DNA of 41,240 nt from Polyangiaceae bacterium. Lineage in GTDB: Bacteria > Myxococcota_A > Polyangia > Polyangiales > Polyangiaceae. A program made the translations under genes and the position numbers. Location: positions 1 to 41,240 of the forward strand of contig JABSRN010000102.1 of NCBI GenBank assembly GCA_013214025.1. The letters run 5' to 3'. The notes beneath the pieces were generated by a model. That model was given only the letters and a program-made list of their open reading frames with translations. It was not told where the DNA came from and ran no database searches. Positions 235 to 17,325 of the stretch are shown here, piece by piece (the first letter of the stretch is position 1; every line of letters starts with the position of its first letter).

Positions 235-1683
235 CTAGTCGATCGCTGGGAAATTCGGCGGCGCGACCTTCGAGATGTGCTGTAGCAGCCGCACGACCTG
301 GGCGCTGTAGCCGTACTCGTTGTCGTACCAGACGTAGAGCACACAGCGTTTGCCGTGAGTGATGGTGGCGTAGCTGTCGACGATGCCGGCGTGACTGTTG
401 CCGACGAAATCGCTGGAGACCACTTCCGTTGACTGGGTGTAATCCACCTGCGCTTGCAGGGCTGAGTCCAGCGCTGTGGCGCGCAAAAATGCGTTTACGG
501 TTTCTTTGTCGGTTTCGTTTTCGAGGTTGAGGTTGAGCACGGCCAAGCTCACGTTAGGCGTCGGCACACGAATGGCGTTGCCGGTGAGTTTACCTGCCAA
601 CTCCGGGATGGCTTTGGAGACCGCCTTGGCCGCTCCCGTTTCGGTGAGCACCATATTGAGCGGCGCACCCCGACCTCGGCGTTCTTTCGGGTGATAGTTG
701 TCGATCAGGTTCTGATCGTTCGTGTACGAGTGGCACGTTTCCATGTGGCCGTTCTCGATGCCGAACTTGTCGCTGATGACCTTCAGTACCGGAACGATTG
801 CGTTGGTGGTGCAGCTGGCAGCAGACAGCAAACGCTCGTCGGAATCTACGGTGTTGTGGTTAACGCCGAAGACGATGTTGGGGATGTCGCCCTTGCCAGG
901 TGCCGTCAGAATCACGTGGGAGACGCCACCACTCTTCAGATGCCGTCCCATGCCTTCGCGATCGCGCCAAATGCCAGTGTTGTCCAGCACGACCGCGTCT
1001 TTGATGCCGTACTTGGCATAATCAGTTTCCTCGGGAGCGGCTGAATAGATCACTCGAACCAGATTGCCGTTGATGACGAGGGCGTTTTCTTCTTCGTCGA
1101 TCTCGATGGTGCCTTTGAAGCTGCCGTGCACCGAGTCGTAACGCAAGAGGCTGGCGCGTTTCTTGAGATCCCCGGGAGCGCCCTTGCGAACCACGATAGC
1201 GCGCAGTCGGAACTTGTCGCCGCCACCGGTCTTCTCGATCAAGATACGGGCGAGCAATCGACCGATGCGACCGAAGCCGTACAGCACGATGTCTTTAGGT
1301 TCCTCACGCAGGGGTTTGCCGCCGGGTCCGATCTTAGCGAACTGACCGTCGAGGAATTTTTCGAGATCGGCGTCCTTGCCGAGCTGAGAGAACTCGTGAC
1401 TGAAGTGGCCCACGTCGATGCGGGTGGGGGCCAAACCTCGTCGGGCGATGGACTGCACAATCTTTAGGCTGTCGCTGACGCCGATGTCCTTCTCGAGTCG
1501 ACGAGCTTTGCGATGGGTTTTGATGACCTGAATTGGGGTTTGACCAACCAGCGAGATGCCATAAACGATGATGACAATGCCGTGATCGCGGTACAGCCCA
1601 CCAATGATGGGCCCCATGGTTTCGGCGGCCTCCTCAGCGGCTTTCCAGGCGGCGAGGTAGGCTTCGGTCTTGGCATCGCTCAT
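235..1683 (-). CDS. gap: Glyceraldehyde-3-phosphate dehydrogenase, long (about 480 aa) form
   Basis: NAD(P)-dependent GAPDH, interconverting glyceraldehyde-3-phosphate and 1,3-bisphosphoglycerate in the cytoplasm. The 482-residue product has the Rossmann motif GFGRIG at about 136-141 and the catalytic ASCTTNA segment with Cys at about 291. The C-terminal part has the WYDNEYGYS motif typical of the family. Residues 1 to about 130 form an N-terminal extension absent from the usual 330-residue enzyme. From memory it resembles the long GAPDH clade of Pseudomonas and Vibrio, including the LYGFGRIGRLLARILIEKTG region. The ATG at 1683 lacks a clear Shine-Dalgarno sequence but gives the expected full length. 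The gene stands alone, divergent from the Nif3-like gene, with no other glycolytic gene nearby. Whether it works in glycolysis or gluconeogenesis cannot be told from sequence. Confidence 0.95.
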   Translation of the reverse strand: MSDAKTEAYLAAWKAAEEAAETMGPIIGGLYRDHGIVIIVYGISLVGQTPIQVIKTHRKARRLEKDIGVSDSLKIVQSIARRGLAPTRIDVGHFSHEFSQLGKDADLEKFLDGQFAKIGPGGKPLREEPKDIVLYGFGRIGRLLARILIEKTGGGDKFRLRAIVVRKGAPGDLKKRASLLRYDSVHGSFKGTIEIDEEENALVINGNLVRVIYSAAPEETDYAKYGIKDAVVLDNTGIWRDREGMGRHLKSGGVSHVILTAPGKGDIPNIVFGVNHNTVDSDERLLSAASCTTNAIVPVLKVISDKFGIENGHMETCHSYTNDQNLIDNYHPKERRGRGAPLNMVLTETGAAKAVSKAIPELAGKLTGNAIRVPTPNVSLAVLNLNLENETDKETVNAFLRATALDSALQAQVDYTQSTEVVSSDFVGNSHAGIVDSYATITHGKRCVLYVWYDNEYGYSAQVVRLLQHISKVAPPNFPAID

Positions 1684-1943
1684 AGGAGCGGGGTGTAGTG
1701 CTGGCTTTCCGGAATGGCAACGACGGCTTGTCCCGGCGAAGAGGACACGGAGAATCCGGCGGCGTCCCGGGTCAGTAGCGGCTGTAAGCGGAGCCCAGAG
1801 CTGCTCTCATGGCCCCGGCGGGTATCGGCCGGAGGGCTTCTTTTTCCGTGATGTTTGGTCTGGGACGGCGTCCGGCCCTCACTCTGCGCGGTCGATCGGG
1901 GGCGTATTGCCCGGGATCCACAGACCCGGTAGCGTCGATTTCA

Positions 1944-2744
1944 ATGAGCTTTCAACTCCCGACCCTCCTGTCCGCCCTCGAAATTATCGCTCCGCTCCGA
2001 CTGGCGGAAGACTGGGACAACGTGGGGTTGCTTCTGGAGCCGGATCCCGAGGCGGAGATCTCGCGGGTCCTGCTCACCATCGATTTGACCGACACCGTCG
2101 TCGATGAAGCGATCGAGTTCGGCGCGGAGTTGATCGTCAGCTACCACCCGCCCATTTTCGGCGGGCTCAAACGTCTGACCCAAGCTCGCCCGGATGAGCG
2201 CGCGCTGCTGCGATTGGTGAACGATGGCATTGCGGTGTACTCGCCCCACACTGCGCTGGATGCCGCTGCGGGTGGCGTTAACGACTGGCTAGCGAAGGGC
2301 ATCGGCAAGGGCGAGACCCAACCGGTGGCGCCGCACAGCACTGACGCAGCTCTTGGGGCCGGGCGGCAAATCTCCCTGGCTACACCGACGCGGCTGGACA
2401 GCATCATCAAGCGCGTAAAACGTCACCTCAAGTTGGATCACGTTCGCGTCGCCACGGCTCCCGAACACGCGGCGAACATTCCGATTCAATCGGCCATGGT
2501 CTGCGCCGGAGCCGGGGGCAGCTTGTTGAGCGGCAAGCGCACGGATCTGTTGCTCACCGGGGAGATGCGTCATCACGACGTGTTGTGGGCGACGCGAACA
2601 GGAACCTCGGTGATTTTGACGGACCACACGAACTGCGAGCGCGGCTACCTGCCGACGCTGTCGCGCGCTATGCGAGCGTCCTTGGGCACAAAACTAAAGG
2701 TCCGCATCGCACTGAGCGACGCGGACCCTCTCGTTATTTGCTGA
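1944..2744 (+). CDS. Nif3-like dinuclear metal centre protein (GTP cyclohydrolase I type 2/YbgI family)
   Basis: Nif3/YbgI family protein, a toroidal hexamer with a two-metal site. Its cellular role is poorly defined, and GTP cyclohydrolase I activity has been proposed for some members. The ATG at 1944 gives 266 residues, the usual size, beginning MSFQLPTLLSALEIIAPLRL. Earlier in-frame starts would add a 45-residue stretch unlike the family. Metal-ligand motifs are visible in order: SYHPPIFGG, HTALDAA, LLTGEMRHHD and the C-terminal LTDHTNCERG. It is a single gene, divergent from GAPDH and convergent with the Cys-rich lipoprotein gene, with a hairpin at 2751-2771 just after its stop. Confidence 0.9.
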   Translation: MSFQLPTLLSALEIIAPLRLAEDWDNVGLLLEPDPEAEISRVLLTIDLTDTVVDEAIEFGAELIVSYHPPIFGGLKRLTQARPDERALLRLVNDGIAVYSPHTALDAAAGGVNDWLAKGIGKGETQPVAPHSTDAALGAGRQISLATPTRLDSIIKRVKRHLKLDHVRVATAPEHAANIPIQSAMVCAGAGGSLLSGKRTDLLLTGEMRHHDVLWATRTGTSVILTDHTNCERGYLPTLSRAMRASLGTKLKVRIALSDADPLVIC

Positions 2745-2750
2745 AACAGG

Positions 2751-2771
2751 CTAGCTTCTGAGTCAAGCTAG
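2751..2771. terminator. Hairpin between convergent genes
   Basis: A perfect 7-bp inverted repeat (CTAGCTT, 7-nt loop, AAGCTAG) begins 7 bases after the Nif3-like stop codon and lies before the end of the opposing lipoprotein gene. No T tract follows on either strand, so it is only a possible terminator. Confidence 0.35.
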
Positions 2772-2818
2772 ACGCTGAGCGCATTGATGGCTTTTGATAC
2801 GGCCATCTGGCGTGGCTC

Positions 2819-3394
2819 TCAGCTCGGCGTACAAGTGCCGGAGCTGCCGAACGGAAGGCAGTTGCCGCCCATCAGGCTTCCGCACTCCCCGCTGCTCAGA
2901 CAGCATCCAGTGCCCATTTGAGACACACAAGCGACGTCTTCGACACCCGGCTCGATGCCGAAGCCGCCGGCGTCGAAGTCCATTCCGCCGCCGTCGAGGC
3001 CCGCTCCGCCGCCAGTCAAGTCTGTGCAGTTGCCGTCATCGGTGAAGGTAACCCCGCAGGTTCCATCGGGGGAACAGCATGCGGTGCCGACCTGGGTCTC
3101 GCCGCAATCGGTGGCGGTGGTGCACTCCGAGCCCATGCCGTTGCCTCCGGTGCCCAAGCTGACGGTACCGCCGGTGCCTGAGCCGGTCGTCCCTCCAGTG
3201 CTAGAGCCGGTCGTGCCAGCGGTGCTAGCGCCGGTCGTTCCGCCAGTTGAAGCAGCATCACTGGTGCCGCTGCCGCCTCCGTCAACGGTCCCTGCGGTGG
3301 TGCTATCGCCATCGCCGCACGCAACTGCCGTCGCGAGCAATAGTCCCGCCGTGGCTGTGATGGATGAGATTGAAATTTTACGAATTGCGGCCAT
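2819..3394 (-). CDS. Cys-rich Gly/Thr-repeat secreted lipoprotein
   Basis: Hypothetical lipoprotein of 191 residues. The N-terminus is a signal peptide ending in the lipobox-like TAVAC, so it is probably lipidated and anchored in the envelope. A flexible Gly/Ser/Thr linker follows (about residues 30-80), encoded partly by three 24-bp repeats at 3180-3251. Two Cys-rich blocks follow (CTTATDCG...CCSPDGTCG and CVSQMGTGCCLSSGECG...C) with similar spacing, probably disulfide-bonded modules that arose by duplication. The start is supported by an AAGGAG sequence nine bases upstream. Similar Cys-rich lipoproteins with Ser/Thr/Gly linkers are common in myxobacteria. The function is unknown. Confidence 0.8.
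   Translation of the reverse strand: MAAIRKISISSITATAGLLLATAVACGDGDSTTAGTVDGGGSGTSDAASTGGTTGASTAGTTGSSTGGTTGSGTGGTVSLGTGGNGMGSECTTATDCGETQVGTACCSPDGTCGVTFTDDGNCTDLTGGGAGLDGGGMDFDAGGFGIEPGVEDVACVSQMGTGCCLSSGECGSLMGGNCLPFGSSGTCTPS
3180..3251. repeat. Three tandem 24-bp repeats in a lipoprotein linker
   Basis: Three imperfect copies of a 24-bp unit (3180-3203, 3204-3227, 3228-3251) encode an eight-residue Ser-Thr-Gly-Gly-Thr-Thr-Gly-rich unit on the minus strand. The unit is a multiple of three, so copy-number changes would lengthen or shorten the linker without breaking the frame. Confidence 0.8.
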
Positions 3395-3604
3395 TGTCTA
3401 GGCTCCTTAAGGATTGGAATACGGAATGCGCCTGGTGGGATATGGTGGGATAGTATCACGCGGACCGAGGCGACAGAGGCGAGGAGAAGAGAATTCTCGC
3501 GGTTTCGGACGGGTCGAAGCGCGTCTTGTTTCAGACGGCTGGAAGCTTGTAGTGGCAGCGCTCGGGGCCTTGTGTTGCTGCGGGCTTTGACGTAGTCGGG
3601 CGCG

Positions 3605-4234
3605 ATGCCGTCGCAACGACTCGGGAAAATTCTGTTCGCTACGTCCAACCCCCACAAGATCCGGGAGGTCGGAGAAGTGCTCGGAGCGAGCGGTTGCTCG
3701 ATTGCTGGACTGGACAGCTTGAACGAAAGCTTCCCTGAACCCTTAGAAGACGGCGATAGCTTCGAGGACAACGCGCGGATCAAGGCGCTGGGTTATGCCC
3801 AATCTACGGGCATGAGTTGCCTTGCGGAGGACTCGGGTCTCGAGGTGGACGCTCTTGGGGGCGCGCCGGGAGTGCACTCGGCCCGCTACTCCGGAATCAG
3901 TGGCGACAGGGCTTCGGTTGATCGCGCCAACAACGAAAAGCTCATCGACGCTGTCGCGGGTATGAGCCCTTCGGAACTGAGCGCGCGCTTCGTCTGTGCC
4001 ATGTGCTGGGTGTCGGCCACAGGAGAGGTGCTGGGGGAGACTCGCGGTGTCTACGAGGGGCTCATCACCACCGAGCCCCGAGGGGAAAACGGTTTCGGTT
4101 ACGATCCGCTCTTGTGGTTGCCGGACGTCGGCAAGACCAGTGCCGAGCTCGCGCCTGAAGAGAAGAATGCGCGGTCCCATCGGGGGGCGGCTACTCGAGC
4201 TATGTTGCAACTCATGCTCGCCCAAAACGGCTGA
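3605..4234 (+). CDS. rdgB: RdgB/HAM1 non-canonical purine NTP pyrophosphatase
   Basis: Hydrolyses dITP, XTP and ITP to the monophosphates and pyrophosphate, keeping deaminated purines out of DNA and RNA. The 209-residue length fits the family. The N-terminal substrate-binding segment FATSNPHKIREV is followed by the hallmark AEDSGLEVDALGGAPGVHSARY. The C-terminal part has ENGFGYDPLL and the final SHRGAA motif. The ATG at 3605 puts the first strand at the normal distance from the start, although the Shine-Dalgarno sequence is weak. It is divergent from the Cys-rich lipoprotein gene and lies 271 bp upstream of trkA, so it is probably its own transcript. Confidence 0.95.
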   Translation: MPSQRLGKILFATSNPHKIREVGEVLGASGCSIAGLDSLNESFPEPLEDGDSFEDNARIKALGYAQSTGMSCLAEDSGLEVDALGGAPGVHSARYSGISGDRASVDRANNEKLIDAVAGMSPSELSARFVCAMCWVSATGEVLGETRGVYEGLITTEPRGENGFGYDPLLWLPDVGKTSAELAPEEKNARSHRGAATRAMLQLMLAQNG

Positions 4235-11677: not shown

Positions 11678-12619
11678 CTACTTCCACTCGACGTCTACGT
11701 AAAACGCGACATCTTTGCCGTCCTCTTTGCCGATCAGTACGCCCTCGACGTTGGCAGGGTGCGACTGGGGCGTTTCGAAATTCACTTGGTAGGTGCCGCC
11801 TCGGGGGCCCTGATCCAGGATTTTCGGCCCGTCGTGGTTGGCGTAGAAGAACTCGGACCAGAAGACTCCCTGGAGCGCGAAGTTCAGTTTGGAGCGGGTC
11901 CACTTGGCGTAGGCCCCTTTGCGGTCGGCGAAAGATTTCGGGAGGCGGTCCAACCATTCGGCGAGGTCAGGATCCGTCTCTTGGAGGACAGAAGCGTTCG
12001 CAGTGAGCTCGAAGTACGCTTGGGCATCTTCACTCACGCACTCCTTCTTGCACGCGAGCCAATGAGCTTTCACGTCGAAGCGAAAGGTGTCTTGGTTCGA
12101 CAGACGTCCGGGTGGCATGACGCGAGCAAAGATAACGACTTCCTTTTCGTAGCCGTAGGCCTCGTACTTCCCGCCGACCTGAAACTTAGTCGGCACCGGG
12201 AACAGCGCCTCGCTGATTTCGAAGCCTTCGGGCCCCCTAAATTTCACTTTGGTCTTGCCCCCGACCTCCCCGGGATTCGTCCAAGACAGCCGGTAGCCGT
12301 CGGCAAGCTGAAACTGCATCGCCAGGTAGAAAGGCTTGCCGGGATGAATCACGGGCGACAGCGGCAGGAAGCTGGCTCGTGCCACCACGTCCGGCGTATT
12401 CTCCGGGGCTTCTGCCATGGGATCCGGCGCGATGAGCGTGCTGAGATCTTGTTGCACGACCCTGTCCGGTGAGTTCGCTTCCGAGGATTCAGAGCTGCTC
12501 GAACCGCACGCTGAGCTGAAGACAGCGGTGGCGCAGAGGCTGAGCGCGAAGGCGGTGCGGCGCTGTCTGATTCTAACAGACTGCGGATTTCGAAGAGACG
12601 AATCAGACGGGTGGGGCAT
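11678..12619 (-). CDS. DsbD-alpha-like (ScsB N-terminal-type) lipoprotein
   Basis: A 313-residue lipoprotein from the ATG at 12619. Its signal peptide ends in FSSAC (Cys38) and a Ser/Glu linker follows. The globular part resembles the immunoglobulin-like periplasmic alpha domain of DsbD/ScsB thiol-disulfide reductases: LPLSPVIHPGKPFYLAMQF, then DGYRLSWTNPGEVGGKT, then the diagnostic HWLACKKECV with a C-X3-C pair at about 190 and 194. The eight-helix membrane domain and C-terminal thioredoxin domain of DsbD are absent here and not encoded next to it. It may accept electrons from a DsbD encoded elsewhere, which is an inference. No good Shine-Dalgarno sequence was seen, so the start is less certain than the domain. 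Confidence 0.78.
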   Translation of the reverse strand: MPHPSDSSLRNPQSVRIRQRRTAFALSLCATAVFSSACGSSSSESSEANSPDRVVQQDLSTLIAPDPMAEAPENTPDVVARASFLPLSPVIHPGKPFYLAMQFQLADGYRLSWTNPGEVGGKTKVKFRGPEGFEISEALFPVPTKFQVGGKYEAYGYEKEVVIFARVMPPGRLSNQDTFRFDVKAHWLACKKECVSEDAQAYFELTANASVLQETDPDLAEWLDRLPKSFADRKGAYAKWTRSKLNFALQGVFWSEFFYANHDGPKILDQGPRGGTYQVNFETPQSHPANVEGVLIGKEDGKDVAFYVDVEWK

Positions 12620-12804
12620 AGGGGCGGGAAGATATCGACTTGCACAACTCTTGGAAAGCGACTTTGGTGGGTTGCCCTGTCCCGTAGCGGTTGTTCCCAG
12701 CTTCAGGGGGGAGCGGACGCGGGATTGCGGAGCCCCAAGGGCAATTTGTGGGATCCGCTCGCAATGTTCTGGCGACGCTTGCCGGGGCGGGGCATGGTCC
12801 CCCC

Positions 12805-13434
12805 ATGTTTGATGCCTTGGGCATGTCCCCGATGGGCGCGTTACCTTTCGGAATGCTGTTCCTTTTGGGGGCCTTCCTGAACTTTCGTCGCCGGCGAATG
12901 GGGCTAAACCGATCGCGCCGTGACATGCCACGTTTCGCCAACGAACTCGGCCTTCAGCACCGTTCTACCGGTTCTGATTTGGTGGGGCAGGTGAGCGGAC
13001 AGCTGGCTGGCTTCGACGTGTTTGTCGATCCTGACGTGGGGCCGCGGATCAAGTTGCTCTTCCGTCGTCCAGTAGGCATCGAGCTACGCACCTTTTCCCG
13101 AACAGGACGGGTGCCTGATGGCATGACGCTGGCCTATTTTGACAAGTCACTGAACCGATTTTTTAAAGACCGCCACGTCTCCCACGCATTGGCGGCGGAT
13201 CTTGACGAGGTAGCGGGCAGTGCCCATTGGACTCACCGTTTGAACGAATTTCGCGAGGGCCATGAACGGCGCTTGCAGAGTTTTCGAATTGATACGGACG
13301 GCATGGAGGCGGTGTTTGACTTCGGCAAACCGGCGTACCTCCCTGGAACAAAAATGACCGAGATCCTCAAGCTGTGGGTAAAAATTGCCGAAAGCCTTGA
13401 AGCTGCGGATTTCGAGGACGATCTCGCCGATTGA
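12805..13434 (+). CDS. Hypothetical protein with N-terminal membrane helix
   Basis: A 209-residue protein of no recognised family. The ATG at 12805 is chosen because it places a short hydrophobic helix (MGALPFGMLFLLGAFLNF) near the N-terminus, followed by an RRRR stop-transfer segment. The soluble region that follows is probably cytoplasmic. An earlier in-frame start at 12691 would overlap the region upstream of the divergent DsbD-like gene. It ends 85 bp before recQ and may share its transcript. Confidence 0.65.
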   Translation: MFDALGMSPMGALPFGMLFLLGAFLNFRRRRMGLNRSRRDMPRFANELGLQHRSTGSDLVGQVSGQLAGFDVFVDPDVGPRIKLLFRRPVGIELRTFSRTGRVPDGMTLAYFDKSLNRFFKDRHVSHALAADLDEVAGSAHWTHRLNEFREGHERRLQSFRIDTDGMEAVFDFGKPAYLPGTKMTEILKLWVKIAESLEAADFEDDLAD

Positions 13435-16138: not shown

Positions 16139-16711
16139 TTAGATCTTCTGTGCATCGCGCATTAGTTGCTTCAACAGCTCGACCTGGCTGGAGCCGTAGA
16201 AATACGGGTACCTCGGATGTCCGCTGTTCAGATCTCTGCGCAGCTTGCCTGCTGAATCGAAGAAGAAGACTTTCGGCACATAGCCTCGAAACTCTGCATT
16301 GTAGGGCTGGAGCCACGCGGGCTCGTCGTCGTGGTTTTGTCCGACCATTACCAGGCCTTTGGATGCCGCCGCGAACTCGGGATTGTCCAGCTTAGCGGCC
16401 AGAGACCGGCACTTAGAACACCAGTGGGCGTATACTAGCACCATCATCGGCACTCCTCGACGCTTGGCTTCGGCTAGTCCCGATTCCCAGCTTCGCCAGG
16501 CAACGCTCGCGGGCAGGTGAACCTCGTTTGTCGCTTTCCGAGCCGTTGGGACGCCTCCGGTTGGCGTTGGGGGGGCTGCAGGCGGGGGGCGGGCGACCGA
16601 CGATTGGGGGGCGGGCTGCGCTGCCGGGAGCTTCTTCCGAGTCCCTCGGGGGTCGCCAGCCTGGCAGCTCGCGAGGACCAGGATGATCAGAACGAGCGCC
16701 GAACTCTGCAC
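16139..16711 (-). CDS. Thioredoxin-fold lipoprotein resembling TXNDC12/AGR proteins
   Basis: A 190-residue lipoprotein. The signal peptide ends in LVLASC (Cys16), followed by a Pro/Ala linker (about 25-60) and a thioredoxin fold. The active site is WCSKC (Cys98, Cys101) after the strand MMVLVYAH; cis-proline is at about 146 in YVPKVFFFD. The segment FFFDSAGKLRRDLNSGHPRY and the following PYFYGSSQVE closely resemble, from memory, the end of the human ER protein TXNDC12/ERp18. Both active-site cysteines are present, so disulfide exchange is likely, in the periplasm. The start is GTG with a poor ribosome-binding site. Divergent from the DoxX-like gene. Confidence 0.82.
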   Translation of the reverse strand: MQSSALVLIILVLASCQAGDPRGTRKKLPAAQPAPQSSVARPPPAAPPTPTGGVPTARKATNEVHLPASVAWRSWESGLAEAKRRGVPMMVLVYAHWCSKCRSLAAKLDNPEFAAASKGLVMVGQNHDDEPAWLQPYNAEFRGYVPKVFFFDSAGKLRRDLNSGHPRYPYFYGSSQVELLKQLMRDAQKI

Positions 16712-16830
16712 CCCTGGGGTTTATCAGGCGGCAGATCCTCCGGCAACCGGCTTGCGGGGCGTCGCCTCTTTTGACGGCGGAGCGCGGCGCTTGGCTAGCC
16801 GGCGGATCTCAAGGAGCCGGTTTGGCAGCC

Positions 16831-16841
16831 GGGGGGGGGGG
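16831..16841. repeat. Poly-G tract of 11 in an intergenic region
   Basis: An uninterrupted run of 11 G lies about 50 bp upstream of the DoxX-like start, between two divergent genes. Such tracts slip during replication and could alter promoter spacing. A longer in-frame start for the DoxX-like gene at 16771 would place the run inside coding sequence. Confidence 0.7.
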
Positions 16842-16890
16842 CTTGGTAAGCGGGGAATGGTCTGTTAACAAGGCGTCCGAAGGAACCTTG

Positions 16891-17325
16891 ATGAACGATC
16901 TATTTTGTACGCCTGGTAACAGCGACGGCTGTCTCTCTCTCTTGATGATCAGCCAAGTATTGGTTTGCGCATTCCTTTCCGTGCTTTTTCTGCAGTCCGG
17001 TATCGACAAGGTGGCCGATCGAAAAGGCAATCTCGAATGGCTGACAGGCCACTTCGCAAACTCGCCGTTCAAGAACGTGGTGGGCCTCCTCCTGACCCAA
17101 ATCACCATTCAGGAAATCGCGGCGGGCATTCTGTGTGCCGTTGGCGCTGGCGTGCTGGCATTTACTGGGGCCAAGCTGGTGGCCATATTCGGCCTGATTC
17201 TCGCCTCCGCTTCGGTACTGTGTTTGTTCATTGGGCAGCGCCTCGCCAAGGACTACGAGGGCGCTGCGGTCTTGGTGAATTACTTCGTGCTGACCATCCT
17301 CGGCCTCTACTTGTTTGCGATCTAG
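16891..17325 (+). CDS. DoxX-like four-helix membrane protein
   Basis: A 144-residue membrane protein from the ATG at 16891, which has AAGGA seven bases upstream. Four hydrophobic helices are visible: LLMISQVLVCAFLSVLFL; VVGLLLTQITIQEIAAGILC; VGAGVLAF...VAIFGLILA; and AAVLVNYFVLTILGLYLFAI. The sequence LFLQSGIDKVADRKGNLEW after helix 1 resembles the DoxX family. The family's substrate is not established. It is followed after 63 bp by the CDF transporter on the same strand, probably cotranscribed. A longer in-frame start at 16771 would add a Gly-rich leader across the poly-G tract and is considered unlikely. Confidence 0.75.
   Translation: MNDLFCTPGNSDGCLSLLMISQVLVCAFLSVLFLQSGIDKVADRKGNLEWLTGHFANSPFKNVVGLLLTQITIQEIAAGILCAVGAGVLAFTGAKLVAIFGLILASASVLCLFIGQRLAKDYEGAAVLVNYFVLTILGLYLFAI

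Follow-up and report, generated by a model that had tools for sequence, protein, structure and literature searches.

The gene at the locus

Within the window, by which we mean the whole 41,240-nucleotide stretch of DNA analysed here, an open reading frame on the minus strand (16711..16139) starts with GTG, contains no internal stops and encodes a protein of 190 aa that, from the reading frame, Pfam, a search of PDB sequences and alignment, appears to be a TXNDC12/AGR-type thioredoxin-fold lipoprotein. A hydrophobic stretch at its N-terminus is followed by LASC, a lipobox assigned by motif alone, with Cys16 as the predicted lipidated residue (putative signal peptide with lipobox, 16664..16711, minus strand); lipoboxes recur among the relatives of the protein. 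Because the open frame extends just three codons past the GTG (193 aa) and the signal peptide carries no basic residue, and hence no basic n-region, the N-terminus is not exactly fixed. A Pro- and Ala-rich linker (residues 17-69; 16505..16663, minus strand) leads into the thioredoxin domain, which Pfam assigns to Thioredoxin_7 with 44 bits against a cut-off of 27 (residues 72-152; 16256..16498, minus strand). The domain contains the WCSKC active-site motif (residues 97-101; 16409..16423, minus strand) and the segment YVPK (16271..16282, minus strand), whose proline 146 is presumed to be cis by analogy with the fold; across our 48-row family alignment, neither cysteine varies, nor do the Y and the P of YxP. 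Beyond the Thioredoxin_7 match lies the tail HPRYPYFYGSSQ, in which the motif GHPRYPYFY (residues 164-172; 16196..16222, minus strand) matches GNPSYKYFY of TXNDC12. The protein ends in RDAQKI, that is, without a retention signal of the KDEL type. The two stretches quoted in the first-pass annotation, YVPKVFFFDSAGKLRRDLNS and HPRYPYFYGSSQ, are both present, and so is the WCSKC that it had described as kept in the bacterial protein. A Pfam scan of the 190-aa protein gave no DsbD_TM match, and an NCBIfam scan gave no match close to any cut-off.

In the source genome (5.77 Mb in 184 contigs), Thioredoxin_7 matches six places, five of them above the cut-off. Whether the query was the window protein or the family profile, the window gene alone reaches the family-level score. 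A plus-strand ORF (16771-17325), oriented divergently to the thioredoxin gene, resembles a membrane protein, possibly of the DoxX type, and has no Pfam match. Elsewhere in the window, a minus-strand ORF (11678-12931) encodes a DsbD_N domain (40 bits) together with SSAC, which resembles a lipobox, and a CKKEC pair. In a comparison of 44 loci, no neighbour of the window gene was shared by at least three, with gene picking that was crude and overlooked even the family gene at 22 of these loci. Five loci of the Nannocystales type (L047, L050, L051, L052 and L074) have a common gene downstream of the TXNDC12-like gene, which in L052 matches Peptidase_S55 (SpoIVB type); this gene yielded no partner for the window protein. 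In a Polyangium locus (L055), the family gene is preceded by a gene (1234-3633) with DUF4215, SBBP and MopE-type repeats, possibly encoding a secreted client.

Similarity to TXNDC12, AGR2 and AGR3

When the window protein was compared with 177,635 distinct PDB sequences, the best matches were the two entries for TXNDC12 (2k8v and 1sen; 69 bits, E 4e-18), in an alignment that spans residues 70-188 and includes the tail. The next sequence, and the best bacterial one, was Xylella 3fk8 at 29 bits, which bears out the first-pass suggestion that the protein is closer to TXNDC12 than to typical bacterial thioredoxins. With the window protein alone, AGR2 and AGR3 scored 21-23 bits, no higher than several thioredoxins, and their likeness therefore emerges only with a family profile. 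A profile that combined six relatives with the window protein gave 105 bits for TXNDC12, 85 for AGR2 and 71 for AGR3, as against 51 for PDI and 48 for 3fk8, and a profile of 48 bacterial domains, without any eukaryotic row, gave 120, 94 and 82.5, respectively, followed by PDI (56), 3fk8 (49) and DsbD (40). The profile matches to TXNDC12 and AGR include the stretch that lies C-terminal to the Thioredoxin_7 model. Thus, the resemblance to TXNDC12 and AGR proposed at first is evident for TXNDC12 from the window sequence itself, but for AGR2 and AGR3 by profile only. On these scores, we consider that the likeness between the window protein and TXNDC12 exceeds both chance and what ordinary thioredoxins display.

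Predicted structures agree. A model of the window domain, built with the 48-row alignment as input, has a pLDDT of 95.6, and the first six Foldseek ranks are occupied by TXNDC12, AGR2 and AGR3; the NMR entries 2k8v, 2lns and 2lnt follow at ranks 11, 14 and 20, behind some DsbD entries. In the VIA comparison, ranks 1-4 went to AGR2 (Z 18.6 and 18.4), AGR3 (18.2) and TXNDC12 (18.1; rmsd 1.7 over 123 aligned residues), and the first entry beyond these three proteins had a Z of 12.7. The structures at the top of the VIA list are crystal and cryo-EM entries, and the same three NMR entries are absent from the best 50 VIA matches. For the corresponding domain of Plesiocystis (pLDDT 89.9), the best match was TXNDC12 (Z 21.1, rmsd 1.9, 131 aligned, TM 0.88), then came AGR entries at Z 19.1-19.3 and other proteins from 13.2 downwards, with the NMR entry 2k8v of TXNDC12 at 10.6. 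The predicted fold of the window protein is accordingly closest to that of TXNDC12, AGR2 and AGR3.

Members and distribution of the bacterial family

Relatives were gathered from the source genome and 38 kin genomes, from a contig scan (45 loci, 43 kept) and from whole-genome searches; L081 and L082 were removed as not belonging to the family, and 81 loci were reduced to 48 at 75% identity for the family alignment and profile. The boundary of the family is clear in the ORFs of 112 loci, where the scores drop from 117 bits for the lowest member to 56 for the best non-member, which is of the DsbD type. The family is mainly myxobacterial (Myxococcota). At least 41 of the 282 genomes sampled from the phylum, including that of the window, contain a member (places of at least 108.9 bits, the next being 70.6), and in the Nannocystales, the order of Plesiocystis pacifica in the NCBI taxonomy, 28 of 29 genomes do. 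Elsewhere members are sparse, with at least 3 of 398 genomes in the phylum of a Pararhizobium genome (G305) and at least 2 of 198 in the phylum of G308, the centre genome being included in both counts. No place at family score was found among 294 genomes of the phylum of a Pirellulales locus (8 matched at E 1e-15, best 68.1 bits), nor among 297 of the phylum of an Aminicenantes locus (14 matched at E 1e-15, best 69.8 bits). All these counts per phylum are lower bounds, since the first step of the searches was confined to 10 to 20 candidates in each genome (11 for the 282-genome sample). Archaea were covered by a narrow pattern scan only.

Searches of viral contigs with the bacterial profile or the TXNDC12 domain gave no relative, phages gave no match to the Plesiocystis domain, and for plasmids the same query gave a single weak match, to a Leptospira thioredoxin (51 bits, 69% coverage); these collections thus provide no hint of a mobile vector. 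One member (L060) lies on a contig labelled as a Klebsiella pneumoniae MAG (3.1 Mb genome), a label that we consider doubtful. Three loci of the Thioredoxin_7 type from the phylum of the Pirellulales locus (L164, L165 and L167) each have one in-frame TGA, possibly for selenocysteine.

Among 85 distinct family sequences, simple patterns pick out at least 38 with a lipobox-like motif, 10 with a Tat-like motif and 5 with a hydrophobic segment at the C-terminus, although some of these calls are surely wrong in either direction. In one subgroup (L044/L094, L045/L093, L049/L100, L091, L092 and L102), a Tat-like RR-x-F signal takes the place of the lipobox, and here the domain may be exported folded. 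The active-site motif varies as well (CPHC 38, CPKC 10, CPRC 8, CSKC 7 and CSQC 7 among the 85), so that the redox direction may differ within the family. One member (L110) has SCPHC in place of WCPHC, resembling AGR2 in the region of its CPHS.

The closest bacterial relatives of TXNDC12

With human TXNDC12 as the query, a Nannocystales protein (L136) scores 118 bits, AGR2 and AGR3 score 72 each, and the window protein 69. A profile of the Nannocystales sequences gives TXNDC12 145 bits, more than any bacterial row from outside the order in that comparison (at most 130), and the profiles of three other bacterial clades give it 97, 86 and 82 and a DsbD-type profile 53. When rows were left out one at a time, the correct clade was recovered for 50 of 52 bacterial rows (48 of 48 without a small clade of four rows). 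The margin by which TXNDC12 prefers the Nannocystales profile, 49 bits, lies near the bottom of the range of the true Nannocystales rows (lowest 42, median 89), 2 of 22 of which have a lower one. AGR2 and AGR3 favour the same profile, by 14 and 11 bits.

The M of PxM, an H just before the active site, a K after it and the N of VMVN occur in all three human proteins and in at least 77% of the Nannocystales rows, as compared with at most 13% of two other large clades. In 19 columns that distinguish the clades, TXNDC12 sides with the Nannocystales in 14 and with other clades in 5, two of the latter being common to all three human proteins; over 120 columns, it has the majority residue of the Nannocystales in 57, compared with 43 and 42 for the other clades. 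Judging from these comparisons, the Nannocystales proteins, and not the window protein, are the closest bacterial relatives of TXNDC12 that we found, and the window protein is probably its cousin in a separate clade. The first-pass annotation had offered the window protein as a candidate relative of the source of the ER family; the family affinity holds and a bacterial source is favoured, but other members stand nearer to TXNDC12.

Phylogenetic reconstruction

Three trees were reconstructed from a short domain (133-135 columns), with human sequences as the sole representatives of eukaryotes. Tree 1 comprises 72 rows and 133 columns; trees 2 and 3 and the AU tests made with them use 30 of its 53 family rows and 10 of its 16 outgroup rows, picked by hand, and 22 Nannocystales sequences that were left of 28 after reduction at 85%. 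Tree 1 separates the family and the human proteins from an outgroup of DsbD and other Thioredoxin_7 proteins at 95/91, and the window protein and TXNDC12 remain apart from the outgroup at 95/89 in tree 2 and 92/83 in tree 3. In tree 1, TXNDC12 falls within the Nannocystales-type group (5+1 rows, 95/89), AGR2 and AGR3 lie outside, and the union of the Nannocystales with all three human proteins receives only 67/36. Tree 2 (63 rows, 22 Nannocystales, TXNDC12 as the only human sequence) unites the Nannocystales with TXNDC12 at 99/98, with TXNDC12 nested among them at 90/77, and joins this group at 87/83 to the clade of the window protein (100/97). With AGR2 and AGR3 added in tree 3, the Nannocystales and the three human proteins group at 95/79 and the clade of the window protein stands at 99/94; here TXNDC12 lies beside a 19-row Nannocystales clade, not within it. 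The three human proteins are not monophyletic in the best trees 1 and 3, and they form one clade in 82% of the bootstrap trees of tree 3. Human branches are long and most Nannocystales branches are short, which, in our view, makes long-branch attraction an unlikely cause of their union. AU tests reject none of the alternatives, i.e. the three human proteins as a clade (p 0.41, 0.21), the Nannocystales alone (0.23, 0.27), all bacterial rows to the exclusion of the human sequences (0.27, 0.28) and TXNDC12 with the outgroup (0.33). The favoured reading of the sequence data is that the human proteins and the bacterial family are monophyletic apart from other Thioredoxin_7 proteins, and that the human proteins group or nest with the Nannocystales.

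The window protein might instead be an ordinary Thioredoxin_7 lipoprotein of the DsbD-gamma kind, with its likeness to TXNDC12 due to a shared ancient fold. Pfam assigns Thioredoxin_7 both to it and to the thioredoxin end of DsbD, AGR2 and AGR3 match the window protein alone no better than thioredoxins do, and the last of the AU tests is compatible with this idea. We nevertheless consider it very improbable: score gaps part the family from DsbD and other Thioredoxin_7 proteins, with TXNDC12, AGR2 and AGR3 on the side of the family, the outgroup is split off in all three trees, and the structural gap (Z 18.1 versus 12.7) points the same way. The profile search and tree proposed at the outset return TXNDC12 and AGR at the top of a bacteria-only profile and do not place the window protein among ordinary Thioredoxin_7 proteins.

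Origin of the eukaryotic family

The presence of the closest relatives of TXNDC12 in nearly every sampled Nannocystales genome suggests that the ER family came from such bacteria, and a relative of members of this order is the most likely source of eukaryotic TXNDC12/AGR, an origin that is favoured but not proven. Transfer in the reverse direction, from a eukaryote to the Nannocystales, would also account for the closeness of the TXNDC12-Nannocystales grouping, the more so as human sequences were the only eukaryotic ones compared; with the gene so widespread in the order, and with rooted trees that place the Nannocystales-human group inside the wider bacterial family, we regard it as unlikely. 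Still less probable, and about as improbable as the DsbD-gamma reading, if not slightly more so, is an alphaproteobacterial (mitochondrial) origin of TXNDC12. Members do occur in the phylum of the Pararhizobium genome, but the small clade to which they belong yields a profile that gives TXNDC12 82 bits, compared with 145 for the Nannocystales profile; the 82-bit profile is weak, with four rows, one of which is from Myxococcota and two of which were misassigned when left out.

Returning to a bacterial source among relatives of the Nannocystales, we would give even odds to a more specific scenario, in which eukaryotes obtained the TXNDC12/AGR family of the ER, with the cancer-linked AGR2 among its members, from a Nannocystales-like myxobacterium, its ancestor was an envelope disulfide enzyme kept by nearly all of the order, and the bacterial branch preserves an ER folding factor in its ancestral form. 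The Nannocystales presumably include the myxobacterium Enhygromyxa. This organism makes cholesterol, and its authors, in the excerpted text, see no simple case of gene transfer (PMC10202945); in excerpts of another paper, a myxobacterial contribution of other genes to eukaryotes has been argued (PMC3131387). A review of the human PDI family mentions, in the sections available, an ancestral prokaryotic protein with a single thioredoxin domain and names no group there, and it reports intron positions common to TXNDC12, AGR2 and AGR3 (PMC3500226). Given these introns, we take the three human proteins to be probably a single eukaryotic family. For C. elegans, a possible TXNDC12 orthologue is named, and none for AGR2 or AGR3, in the portion available of PMC3415087. 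Among the papers listed by a search of the literature, judged by titles and abstract openings, none links TXNDC12 or AGR2 to myxobacteria or treats the bacterial branch, which is not proof that no such work exists. With the present results, one branch of the PDI family gains a specific bacterial neighbour, the origin of TXNDC12 and AGR2 becomes testable by tree, and the bacterial CxxC homologues offer material to study what AGR2 and AGR3 have lost.

Proposed function

On a thioredoxin fold, a CxxC pair that faces a cis-proline carries out thiol-disulfide exchange. Judged by its sequence, the window protein is most likely a lipid-anchored thiol-disulfide exchanger of the cell envelope. The export signal would deliver it to the envelope, the lipid anchor and linker would tether the domain at the membrane while allowing it to reach clients, and the WCxxC pair would swap disulfides with envelope client proteins. 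By analogy with TXNDC12, it may mainly donate or shuffle disulfides and be re-oxidised by the VKOR-thioredoxin fusion or the DsbA-type proteins of the cell. The source genome has two VKOR places, one of them in such a fusion (Pfam), and ten DSBA places, nine above the cut-off and several within one ORF. It has one DsbD_TM, on another contig (C152), in frame with a thioredoxin end that also matches Thioredoxin_7. DsbD may be split in this genome, between the DsbD_N ORF of the window and the DsbD_TM of C152.

The main rival accepts the same family but makes the protein a reductase, with WCSKC kept reduced by DsbD, perhaps via the stand-alone DsbD_N lipoprotein, and with wrong disulfides or oxidised cysteines as the targets of repair. 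The genome does encode DsbD_TM, the DsbD_N protein is encoded only 3.2 kb away in the window, and CSKC differs from the CPHC of DsbA. CPHC is, on the other hand, the commonest motif of the family, and the alignment has V or I before the proline. A V or I in this position is DsbA-like. The published descriptions fall on both sides: excerpts on TXNDC12/ERp18 present it as an oxidase and isomerase that also enters into mixed disulfides with ATF6alpha and might reduce the latter (PMC6670016), whereas a passage of the PDI review has TXNDC12 making disulfides and not reducing them (PMC3500226), and ERp18 is possibly preferred by VKOR, according to a passage of PMC12781119. Because of this literature and of the VKOR, DSBA and DsbD_TM content of the source genome, we favour an envelope oxidase or isomerase and hold the reductase to be the less probable alternative, at perhaps a third of the weight of our preferred reading. 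That reading, to which we assign a probability of roughly 0.7, is that the window gene encodes a lipid-anchored, single-domain envelope thiol-disulfide oxidoreductase that mainly donates or shuffles disulfides, that it belongs to a mainly myxobacterial family grouping with TXNDC12, AGR2 and AGR3, and that the eukaryotic family derives from a relative of members of the Nannocystales.

Comparison with known systems

The window protein is a bacterial homologue and not itself a member of the PDI family. Its closest counterpart among characterised proteins is human TXNDC12 (ERp18/ERp19/AGR1, PDIA16; PDB 1sen and 2k8v), and the two match almost throughout a single thioredoxin-fold domain, sharing WCxxC, a Y-I/V-P-R/K segment, a P-x-Y-x-YFY tail, a C-terminal helix and an export signal. 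TXNDC12 differs, according to passages of PMC3500226 and PMC12781119, in residing in the ER and in having CGAC and an EDEL tail, whereas the window protein has a lipobox, a linker, CSKC and no retention tail. Human AGR2 and AGR3, which are linked to cancer, have, by family profile and predicted structure, the same domain subtype, and the CPHS of AGR2 resembles the commonest bacterial motif, CPHC; the two are far more diverged, show little likeness to the window protein by itself, and retain a single Cys (CPHS in AGR2, CQYS in AGR3), as given in a passage of PMC12781119. The C-terminal domain of DsbD and other bacterial Thioredoxin_7 proteins share with the window protein the thioredoxin fold, WCxxC and the bacterial envelope, but their match to the family profile ends before the tail of the TXNDC12 type, and their scores and structural Z values are lower.
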